A DNA stretch of 64,000 nt, taken from contig NZ_CP021378.1 in NCBI RefSeq assembly GCF_002215495.1, forward strand, positions 3,240,659-3,304,658, in the 5' to 3' direction. The stretch comes from Porphyrobacter sp. CACIAM 03H1. GTDB lineage: Bacteria; Pseudomonadota; Alphaproteobacteria; Sphingomonadales; Sphingomonadaceae. Numbering within the stretch: position 1 is the first letter of the stretch; every line of letters begins with the position of its first letter. The position numbers were made by a program, and so were the translations under genes. Below, one piece after another: positions 1-43,741 of this stretch. Below the pieces are notes generated by a model. That model was not told where the DNA came from. It worked only from the letters and a program-made list of their open reading frames with translations, and ran no database searches.

Positions 1-345
1 TCTGGGCCGACGATCGCTCGACGGCTCTAGCAGCCAACCCGGGTCTCTCGGCGCGAAACACGCCTGCCTCCTTGCGGAAGGCGCGAGACCCCTATTCGGC
101 CTTGCTCCGGGTGGGGTTTGCCATGCGGTTGCCGTTGCCGGCCCCCCGGTGCGCTCTTGCCGCACCCTTTCACCCTTGCCTGTGCCCGCGCTCCCGAAGG
201 ATGGCGGGCCATCGGCGGTCTGCTCTCTGTGGCACTTTCCCTTGCCCCGCCCGAAGGCGGGACCGGCGGGCGTTACCCGCCACCCTCGTTTCGTGGAGCC
301 CGGACTTTCCTCGCGACCCGAAGGTCACGCGGCTGCCTCAGGCCC
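1..345 (-). ncRNA. rnpB: RNase P RNA, 3' end cut by window edge
   Basis: Catalytic RNA of RNase P, which matures tRNA 5' ends. Read on the minus strand, the bacterial type A landmarks appear in order: GAGGAAAGTCCGGGCTCC (positions 315-298 area), a CACAGAGAGCAGACCGCC block, AGGGTGAAAGGGTGCGG with AAGAGCGCACCGG, and ACCCGGAGCAAGGCCGAATAGG. The GGTTGGCTGCT...GAGCC segment is normally followed by the final ACAGAA-type block and the 3' strand of helix P1. That part is absent, so the RNA runs off the left edge. The 5' end near 340-345 is an estimate. Confidence 0.93.
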
Positions 346-395
346 CCTGACGGGTCGGCCTATAGGGTCGGGACGGCGCAAATGCAAAAATCCCT

Positions 396-483
396 TTCGT
401 GCTGAGCTTGTCGAAGCACTGCACTTTTTCGGAACCGACATCGAAAAAGAAAGACAGCCCTTCAACAAGCTCAGGGCGAACGG
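396..483. repeat. REP-like inverted pair (R1/R2)
   Basis: Two copies of a roughly 25-base dispersed element lie head to head. R1 (396-419) carries TGAGCTTGTCGAAG and R2 (458-483) carries its inverse CTTCAACAAGCTCAGGGCG. A 38-base spacer separates them. The pair sits between the 5' end of rnpB and the stop codon of the amidase, and could fold into a large hairpin in RNA. The same core recurs near 2.3, 2.6, 43.65 and 43.72 kb. Confidence 0.85.
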
Positions 484-491
484 GGAATCTG

Positions 492-1895: not shown

Positions 1896-2594
1896 CTAAC
1901 CATCGATCATGGTAAAGGAAAGAGCGGTGAAACCCGCTTCCCCGTCCCGCCAGAACCTTACGTCCTCTCCCGCAAGGATCGCCCAGATCCGGCCGTCCCC
2001 GGCAGCGCAGGCACGGTCGGTGGCGGAGGGGGCGGCGTCCCCGCTCGGGTGGGAATGGAAATAGCCCGCCACCGCCGCCGCCCCGGCACGGGCGGCGCGG
2101 TGGGCATCGATCAGCGCCTGCGGGTCGATCTCGAAATGGGTCTCGGGCGAGGGATGGACATTGGCTGCGAGGCGCGCCTCGAGGATGCGGGCCCCTTCGC
2201 CGAGCAGGATCCCGCAGGCCTCGCGCGGATGCGCCGCGTCGGCGGCGGCGCGCATGGCGGCGAGAGCCTGAGCGGAAAGCTCTATCTCCGTTCGCCCTGA
2301 GCTTGTCGAAGGGCCGCTTTTCCCCTTTGCCAACTGCGAAATCGCCTCCCCGTCCCCACGGACAAGGGCCATCTTCTTTGCTCGCGACCAGCCGTTGATC
2401 TGCCGTTCGGCAGCAAGTGCCTCGTAGCGGGTCGGAAAATCGTGCGACCACACCAGTTCGACGGGAAGCTTATCGCTGGTAAAGCCCTTCACCAGACCCG
2501 AATTGTGCTGCGCTATGCGGTTATCCAGATCATCGGTATGACCGGTGTAGAACGCGCCGCCGCGGCAATGGAGCATGTAGGCCCAGAACGCCAT
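1896..2594 (-). CDS. GIY-YIG endonuclease domain fused to JAMM (M67) peptidase
   Basis: A 232-residue two-domain protein. Residues 1-80 form a compact GIY-YIG domain of the UPF0213 type (AYMLHC, FYTGHT, the basic QINGWSRAKK segment and NHS-like catalytic surroundings). Residues 94-103 (GPSTSSGRTE) are encoded by a REP element (2289-2313) read through in frame. Residues 105-232 form a JAMM/Mov34 metalloprotease-like domain with Glu125 (REACGILLGE) and the zinc motif FHSHPSGDAAPSATD (His180, His182, Ser190, Asp193). In related bacteria these two domains are, to my knowledge, encoded separately. Whether the fused polypeptide is functional or cleaved is unknown. The JAMM part may be the older resident gene. 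Confidence 0.85.
   Translation of the reverse strand: MAFWAYMLHCRGGAFYTGHTDDLDNRIAQHNSGLVKGFTSDKLPVELVWSHDFPTRYEALAAERQINGWSRAKKMALVRGDGEAISQLAKGKSGPSTSSGRTEIELSAQALAAMRAAADAAHPREACGILLGEGARILEARLAANVHPSPETHFEIDPQALIDAHRAARAGAAAVAGYFHSHPSGDAAPSATDRACAAGDGRIWAILAGEDVRFWRDGEAGFTALSFTMIDG
2289..2313. repeat. REP-like element R3, inside the fusion gene
   Basis: One copy of the dispersed repeat with the core CCCTGAGCTTGTCGAAGGG. It lies within a coding sequence and supplies the linker between the GIY-YIG and JAMM domains. It is in inverted orientation relative to R4 at 2619-2643, so the two copies bracket the GIY-YIG coding region. Confidence 0.88.
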
Positions 2595-2618
2595 GCGGAA
2601 CGGCTAAGAGAAAGACGG

Positions 2619-2643
2619 CCCTTCGACAAGCTCAGGGCGAACG
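2619..2643. repeat. REP-like element R4
   Basis: Copy of the dispersed repeat (CCCTTCGACAAGCTCAGGGCG) lying 25 bases beyond the start codon of the GIY-YIG/JAMM gene. It forms the second arm of an inverted pair with R3. Its right edge (CGGAG) may supply the ribosome binding site of the pseudouridine synthase gene that follows on the plus strand. Confidence 0.88.
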
Positions 2644-2655
2644 GAGTTGGGTCGG

Positions 2656-43649: not shown

Positions 43650-43741
43650 CGTTCGCCCTGAGCTTGTCCAAGGGCCGCACTTTCTTCATCCTGACCAGAG
43701 ACAAAGGAAATACGGTGCTTCGACAGGCTCAGCACGAACGG
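43650..43741. repeat. REP-like inverted pair (R5/R6)
   Basis: R5 (43650-43674, CCCTGAGCTTGTCCAAGGG core) and R6 (43715-43741, inverted, GCTTCGACAGGCTCAGCACG) lie 40 bases apart between serS and surE. They belong to the same dispersed family as the copies near 0.4 and 2.3-2.6 kb. The pair could form a long hairpin in transcripts reading from serS into surE. Confidence 0.85.

Follow-up and report, generated by a model that had tools for sequence, protein, structure and literature searches.

Several systems resemble the locus described here. RAYT transposases have been proposed to spread GTAG-tagged REPs. Inverted REPs lie on both sides of RAYT genes, gene and REP coevolve and REP abundance is correlated with the gene (PMC2817692), and RAYTs were described as single-copy genes, apparently unable to self-mobilise (PMC3116915). 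Another group, the CGTC-tagged REPs, has been reported in five phyla and, according to the 2013 survey of Di Nocera et al. (PMC3733652), apparently lacks a dedicated transposase. As defined in that survey, these elements have a terminal CGTC (or TGTC/CCTC) tag, a stem of 8-9 bp and a CCA tail; they include dRS3 of the Neisseriae (= CGTC-1) and RPE-4 and RPE-6 of Rickettsia conorii, and families were reported in S. wittichii, S. meliloti and A. lipoferum, among others. Palindromic elements that Rickettsia proteins contain as in-frame insertions are described in the same source. A GIY-YIG nuclease is associated with a reverse transcriptase in Penelope retroelements (PMC1564403). Among the open-licence PMC papers returned by searches, none was seen, by its listing or by passages of its text, to connect GIY-YIG genes with REPs, and the words GIY and UvrC were absent from the text of PMC3733652 as covered by a word search.

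The locus under study lies in a 64,000-nucleotide stretch of Porphyrobacter sp. CACIAM 03H1, hereafter the window, to which all positions refer. An earlier note on this DNA had described two inverted REP-like elements, R3 (2289-2313) and R4 (2619-2643), around a GIY-YIG coding region. This was borne out by direct reading of the window, where the identity proved even longer: CTCCGTTCGCCCTGAGCTTGTCGAAGGGCCG is found perfectly inverted at 2286-2316 (+) and 2616-2646 (-), with 31 identical bases out of 31. R4 is the outer-end arm, with an exact core GAGCTTGTCGAAG; it is located 5' of the GIY-YIG start codon and outside the fusion ORF, upstream of the ATG at 2594, and R3 is located 3' of the GIY-YIG region. 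The complete REP-GIY-REP unit covers 361 bp (2286..2646, minus strand), and homology between units of this repeat type at different loci begins and stops at the outer ends of the REPs. The fusion ORF of 232 aa (1896..2594, minus strand) is composed of the GIY-YIG nuclease coding region (2319..2594, minus strand, residues 1-92), of R3, whose minus-strand translation GPSTSSGRTE forms residues 94-103, and of a captured Prok-JAB (JAMM) domain (1896..2285, minus strand) of which the own start codon is missing by comparison with nine aligned unfused orthologues. ORF translation and Pfam both agreed with the earlier reading of the inner REP as an in-frame linker to the JAMM domain. The only domains matched by Pfam in this protein were GIY-YIG (PF01541, residues 4-74, 53.1 bits for a cut-off of 22.6) and JAB-type (PF14464, residues 108-216, 81 bits for a cut-off of 25), and the HSHP..D visible in the translation fits the HxH...D motif of JAB metalloproteases. 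A defence-system reading was rejected: PADLOC matched none of three stand-alone GIY-YIG proteins and, in the fusion, the JAB part alone, weakly.

The resemblance to RAYTs and REPINs is extensive: inverted REPs flank the gene, REPs pair as REPINs, gene and REP coevolve and REP abundance tracks the gene, the latter with a weak REP3, orphan repeats in some genomes and tests that ignore kinship. The differences concern the enzyme, a GIY-YIG nuclease and not a Y1/HUH transposase, the Y1 domain being absent from the window protein; the repeats, which are CGTC-type or, in the window, of a CGTTCG type, and not GTAG; and the behavior of the units, which duplicate within genomes, whereas RAYTs have been described as single-copy (PMC3116915). 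A Pfam profile search gave no match to the Y1 transposase (PF01797) in the genome of this strain. RAYTs were therefore rejected as movers of the window REPs, and the distinction from RAYT (HUH) transposases drawn in the earlier note stands. Terminal inverted repeats, perfect over 31 bp in the window unit, are shared with insertion sequences and transposons. Rickettsia palindromic elements are likewise translated in frame, but here the repeat joins a captured gene to a nuclease domain. Penelope elements also carry a GIY-YIG nuclease in a mobile element; in contrast, the window protein has no reverse transcriptase domain and belongs to a minimal, bacterial unit.

The window repeat, REP1, is a genuine dispersed family. 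Its 13-bp core GAGCTTGTCGAAG, with at most two mismatches, had 16 matches in the window against 1.69 expected (maximum of 5 in 100 shuffles), and the 16-mer CCTGAGCTTGTCGAAG, with at most one mismatch, was present in 36+36 copies in the genome, a closed sequence of 3.53 Mb, where its reversed-pattern control had 0; the 13-mer was less clean genome-wide (137 matches vs 59 in its control). Chance origin of the repeats was ruled out by the window shuffles and the reversed-pattern control. Among 30 loci of this genome taken around exact core hits, a reverse copy started 44-60 bp after 14 of the 19 distinct forward copies (24/30 with overlapping loci counted), which is a REPIN arrangement. R3 and R4 are oriented to each other like the arms of a REPIN, and the GIY-YIG gene occupies the position of the loop. 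One such REPIN was found at 394..484 (cores at 404-416 (+) and 460-472 (-)) beside rnpB, whose RNase P RNA of class A (RF00010, 195 bits) at 1-348 (-) is cut by the window edge. A scan of the window with the core revealed another inverted pair at 43660..43730, with one mismatch to GAGCTTGTCGAAG in each arm. The same genome harbors three bracketed GIY-YIG genes with three repeat families, namely REP1 (window), REP2 (L031, beside dnaG) and REP3 (L032).

REP1 is built of CCGTTCG followed by a 5-bp stem and an 11-nt loop. When REP1 or REP2 was folded alone as a single strand, its energy was no better than that of shuffles, so that the case for a hairpin in REP1 rests on covariation: two variable stem positions were paired in 32/32 and 31/32 copies taken from the fetched loci of this genome (G-T counted as a pair), as compared with about 16.6 in a partner-shuffled control (maxima of 26 and 24), and compensatory stem types were present (CCCT/AGGG, GGCT/AGCC, TGCT/AGCA, TCCT/AGGA). 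With its 5-bp stem and without a CGTC tag, REP1 is not a CGTC REP. Many repeats bracketing other GIY-YIG genes do fit the CGTC structure, e.g. CGTC-ATTCCCGC-loop-GCGGGAAT-CCA. By sequence and folding, the REP4 type has a CGTC tag, an 8-bp stem, a 4-nt loop and a CCA tail, and the three CGTC-type repeats that were tested folded better than shuffles. GIY-YIG genes bracketed by CGTC-type repeats were found in Sphingomonadales, S. meliloti (CCTC variant), A. lipoferum and a Neisseria.

To evaluate the bracketing of GIY-YIG genes, the sequence upstream of each gene was aligned locally with the reverse-complemented sequence downstream of it, and a gene was counted as bracketed when the best alignment scored at least 16. 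Genes of Sphingomonadales were collected by similarity to the window protein, and the sample is therefore centred on it. Inverted palindromic repeats bracketed 104 of these 114 small GIY-YIG genes (95/101 in a first pass, 8/12 and 1/1 among genes added later), the other 10 being below the cut, versus 2 of 241 neighbouring ORFs. Swapped flank pairs reached the cut in 269 of 2000 cases because related genes share repeats. For Pseudomonadota, the sample was drawn with Pfam from 120 genomes and retained the strongest among the matches listed, weaker non-UvrC matches being left out; among these, 33 of 89 non-UvrC GIY-YIG genes were bracketed as opposed to none of the 39 control ORFs; of 2000 swapped pairs, 40 reached the cut. 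Control ORFs were called by a simple longest-ORF rule, and their counts rose to 11/241 and 4/39 when the cut was lowered from 16 to 14. The earlier note had named, as evidence against its idea, REPs flanking GIY-YIG genes no more often than other genes; both comparisons, the second among the matches listed, gave the opposite result. One duplicate (L146, of L036) was kept in the Sphingomonadales, co-variation and tree counts; L033 and L058, which repeat L035 and L065, were excluded.

Flanks were also read for the repeat itself. Counted by hand, 17 of the 28 distinct genes at least 50% identical to the window gene had a GAGCTTGTCGAAG-type repeat no more than 60 bases away at each end, as the earlier note had proposed to check; one of the 17 (L151) has its nearest upstream copy in the other orientation, and seven of the remaining 11 have another repeat type, REP2. 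The proposed association of GIY-YIG genes with REPs thus stood insofar as REPs flank these genes, but not as one repeat, since each clade has its own and 49 of 50 genes on the other main side of the GIY-YIG tree are unflanked. A single repeat family attached to GIY-YIG genes was ruled out on reading the flanks listed.

A GIY-YIG match was present in 47 records of a plasmid collection, of which 16 were chosen for reading and 9 proved bracketed. These were from Sinorhizobium meliloti, Sinorhizobium sp. K101, Shinella, Sphingomonas parapaucimobilis, Neisseria gonorrhoeae, Azospirillum lipoferum (between sufB and sufC), Methylobacterium, Rhizobium CIAT894 and the cyanobacterium Planktothrix. The unbracketed ones were from Pseudomonas NY11382, Xanthomonas citri pF, Cupriavidus, Sphingomonas paeninsulae, Acidiphilium, Acetoanaerobium and Subdoligranulum. 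The GIY-YIG gene of N. gonorrhoeae (L255) lies between repeats of the dRS3 type, and more such repeats were seen in the downstream stretch that was read. Units were also observed beside or inside conserved sets of housekeeping genes (L076, L077, L031, L126, L132, L149, L304): before lpd, dnaG, sucD and era, as named from the start of the next gene, and between sufB and sufC, as annotated.

The distribution of bracketing over the GIY-YIG family is far from random. A quick tree of 96 columns was computed from 190 GIY-YIG domains, with a support of 91 for the main split. Divided at its midpoint, it had bracketing in 127 of 140 rows of one half and in 1 of 50 rows of the other. The bracketing label changed 14 times along the tree versus 52.5 times in shuffles, and none of 500 shuffles was as low. 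The half with 49 of 50 rows unflanked provides an internal negative control with the same domain. On the REP side, 13 of 140 rows were below the score cut. Starred branches force at least five label changes, so that a strict single gain without loss is unsupported by the tree. The bracketed clade, as sampled here, spans Alpha-, Beta- and Gammaproteobacteria and one cyanobacterial plasmid. The GIY-YIG gene of the gammaproteobacterium Methylomicrobium sp. wino1 (L150) is 59% identical to that of the window, a likeness that suggests transfer between classes. Among 40 aligned REP-flanked GIY-YIG proteins, Y16, G18, R26 and H30 were invariant and Y6 and E63 were present in at least 90%. The conserved Y6, Y16, R26 and E63 correspond to the catalytic Tyr, Tyr, Arg and Glu of GIY-YIG nucleases, and on this conservation the REP-flanked proteins are likely to be active nucleases.

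Different GIY-YIG clades have different repeats, which go with the protein and not with the genome. For 72 genes with a second flanked GIY-YIG gene in the same genome, arm similarity was higher with the nearest protein elsewhere in 57 cases and with the same-genome gene in 15 (p 6.5e-7). An arm similarity of at least 0.6 was reached by 92% of pairs at a protein similarity of at least 0.8, 50% at 0.6-0.8, 10% at 0.5-0.6 and 0-3% below. Pairs without detected shared neighbourhood (tblastn, up to 1.5 kb on each side) nevertheless had the repeat in common in 10/10 cases at a protein similarity of at least 0.8 and in 100/231 at 0.6-0.8, which indicates that the repeat travels with the gene.

Copy numbers were compared between genomes with and without the cognate gene, in tests that ignore phylogeny and kinship and in which flank subtraction removed two copies per gene. 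The medians were 32 vs 1 for REP1 (p 4.4e-6; flanks subtracted, 1.3e-5), 56.5 vs 0 for REP2 (p 5.2e-6; 5.7e-6), 8 vs 0 for REP3 (p 0.0013; 0.016) and 11 vs 0 for REP4 (p 2.1e-9; 1.3e-7). The REP3 link is weak after flank subtraction (p 0.016, as above; 0.061 within the genus). Exceptions that weigh against a dedicated spreader were repeat-rich genomes in which no cognate gene was found: G011 (64 REP1), G025 (46 REP2) and G045 (39 REP4).

Duplicate units within one genome were observed five times: in G028 (L122/L142, 98.5% identity over 481 bp), G026 (L112/L114, 97.3% over 450 bp), G036 (L098/L144, 93.8% over 453 bp), G038 (89.8% over 420 bp) and G012 (L087/L096, 81.5% over 432 bp). Their homology ended abruptly at the REPs or shortly beyond. 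For units of the window type (L053 vs L036/L037), the match began some 50 nt ahead of the gene and stopped some 30 nt past the domain, spanning the unit from REP end to REP end. For the CGTC-type duplicates L122/L142, L112/L114, L098/L144 and L087/L096, it ran 20-50 nt past the REPs, and this additional sequence could be target or part of the unit. It resembles another dispersed repeat, GTCCGC...ACCC...AGC, and part of the flank of the G026 duplicate matches several other places in that genome. Apparent in-frame stops in one duplicate copy (L144, G036:C5) imply that units also decay in place.

Sites occupied in one species were found vacant in others. At tadA, a unit is present in G036 and three genomes are free of both unit and REP. 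Between valS and queE, G026 has a unit and the five genomes compared, which were chosen for the shortest gaps, have no more than a few bases; longer gaps occur in several genomes outside these five, that of the window included. For the L122 unit, no clean unit-free site was found in the other genomes listed, where its flanks are non-adjacent. Filled and unit-free sites were compared between species only and a target-site duplication was not readable; insertion at tadA, valS-queE and rluD-JAMM is accordingly an argument of parsimony, the unit-free sites coming from other species. Co-variation, duplicates within genomes and unit-free sites all support the proposal of the earlier note that the units move with their own repeats, and we infer that the nuclease itself moves them.

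The history of the window fusion was traced in 61 genomes, 37 of them from the genus. A JAMM match was obtained in 36 of these genus genomes; it belonged to the fusion in 6 and was without a GIY-YIG part in the other 30. An ancestral GIY-JAMM fusion, which the earlier note had given as the outcome that would contradict it, is thereby ruled out. When nine unfused rluD-JAMM junctions were aligned with six fused ones, the REP-GIY-REP block was absent from all nine and the ATG of JAMM was kept at the junction, in agreement with the suggestion that a GIY-YIG/REP unit landed at the 5' end of the JAMM gene. The unit would have inserted between rluD and JAMM, two divergent genes with little space between them, and replaced the JAMM start codon, as a result of which JAMM would now be translated through the REP as a GIY-YIG fusion.

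Neither the REP1 core nor any 8-bp stem was found at 20 of the 22 unfused rluD-JAMM loci checked; the two others, L052 (G025) and L056 (G033), have palindromic repeats at this site and no gene. The variety at this position consists of a REP1 core plus another palindrome in L052, a CGTC-type palindrome in L056 and a reversed unit in L065, a G036 unit, which adjoins the same JAMM start in the opposite orientation. This intergenic site is an apparent hot spot. The fused frame was open across the REP at 9/9 distinct loci, seven using one REP frame and two, G008 and G009, another. At least two independent insertions have probably occurred at the JAMM start, three with that of G036, but the frame of G008 and G009 may also have changed after insertion. 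We considered that the fusion might be an annotation artefact, with JAMM expressed from an internal start and a dead GIY-YIG region. In-frame ATG codons do sit just within the JAMM domain, yet an open frame over the REP at every distinct fused locus and a median pN/pS of 0.26 in the GIY-YIG part (0.43 in the JAMM part, with saturated dS in 13 of 36 pairs for GIY-YIG and in 2 for JAMM) make this unlikely.

Altogether, the window unit probably belongs to a family of minimal mobile units whose cognate REPs and REPINs are spread by a dedicated enzyme, the GIY-YIG nuclease that they encode. The layout throughout the family is REP - GIY-YIG gene - inverted REP, over about 360-480 bp. We infer that catalysis and transposition are due to the GIY-YIG nuclease, which would recognise the hairpin of its own REP and cut there. 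To our knowledge, strand-transfer chemistry is not a property of GIY-YIG enzymes, and host repair or replication functions are for this reason invoked to complete the copying or insertion of the REP pair. REPINs would be internally deleted, non-autonomous derivatives of the units.

The main rival reading reverses these roles: the GIY-YIG gene would be a parasite akin to homing endonucleases that cuts and enters REPIN loops, the REPs being its target and spreading by other means. The precise position of the gene in the REPIN loop, the classic homing nuclease fold of GIY-YIG (PMC1564403) and the repeats without gene at 2 of the 22 unfused rluD-JAMM sites (L052, with a REP1 core, and L056) are compatible with it, and target specificity would likewise yield a match between repeat and protein. 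Such a parasite should, however, occupy many of its targets, and the genome of this strain has one REP1-type gene for 72 REP1 copies. No REP was present at the unit-free sites of tadA (three genomes), valS-queE (the five fetched) and rluD-JAMM (20/22), and no other mover was found, the genome being without a Y1 transposase match. The units share with GIY-YIG homing endonucleases the fold of the catalytic domain and a selfish spread; but they are intergenic or fused, not in an intron or intein, the window gene being fused between rluD and JAMM, and they have flanking palindromes of their own, with genes far fewer than repeats and many uninterrupted REP pairs that persist. This reading is considered quite improbable.

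Two further explanations retain very little probability. RAYTs or other transposases encoded in these genomes could move both REPs and GIY-YIG units, and a Y1_Tnp match does occur in 10 of 61 genomes, but the other 51, including that of the window, have none, G002 combines six Y1 matches with one REP1 copy, and the CGTC survey reported no RAYT gene flanked by CGTC REPs and few, fortuitous transposase associations (PMC3733652). Retention of REPs by selection, as terminators or regulators needed by GIY-YIG genes, would suit their reported location mostly downstream of genes and possible action in RNA (PMC3733652), but is hardly credible given that neighbouring ORFs lack bracketing (2/241), that the repeat goes with the gene at unrelated sites and that it lies inverted on both sides and is duplicated along with the gene.

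If the GIY-YIG nuclease is retained as the spreader, the consequences extend beyond the window. We rate the system as new as a mobile unit, though working like RAYT/REPIN, because it combines three properties of RAYTs with the absence of a Y1 domain and because CGTC REPs have been reported without an enzyme. The best reading of our data is that a GIY-YIG nuclease supplies the enzyme described as missing for CGTC-tagged REPs in the survey cited above (PMC3733652). More generally, it seems rather probable that a large share of the palindromic repeats other than GTAG, CGTC REPs like dRS3 among them, owe their mobility to one GIY-YIG clade dedicated to this task. REP mobilisation would then have a second solution, unrelated to the first, and the units would form a new class of minimal mobile elements in bacteria that can capture host genes when the reading frame continues through the repeat. 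Should the GIY-YIG nuclease be the CGTC REP enzyme, unrelated enzymes would have come to mobilise REPs on two or more occasions, and a superfamily of nucleases with roles in homing, restriction and repair would acquire a class of minimal mobile units in bacteria; the question left open for these repeats would become testable at the bench. In the window itself, the consequence would be that a unit whose repeat doubles as a protein linker took over the start of a host protease gene, and capture through such a linker would represent a route to new domain fusions.
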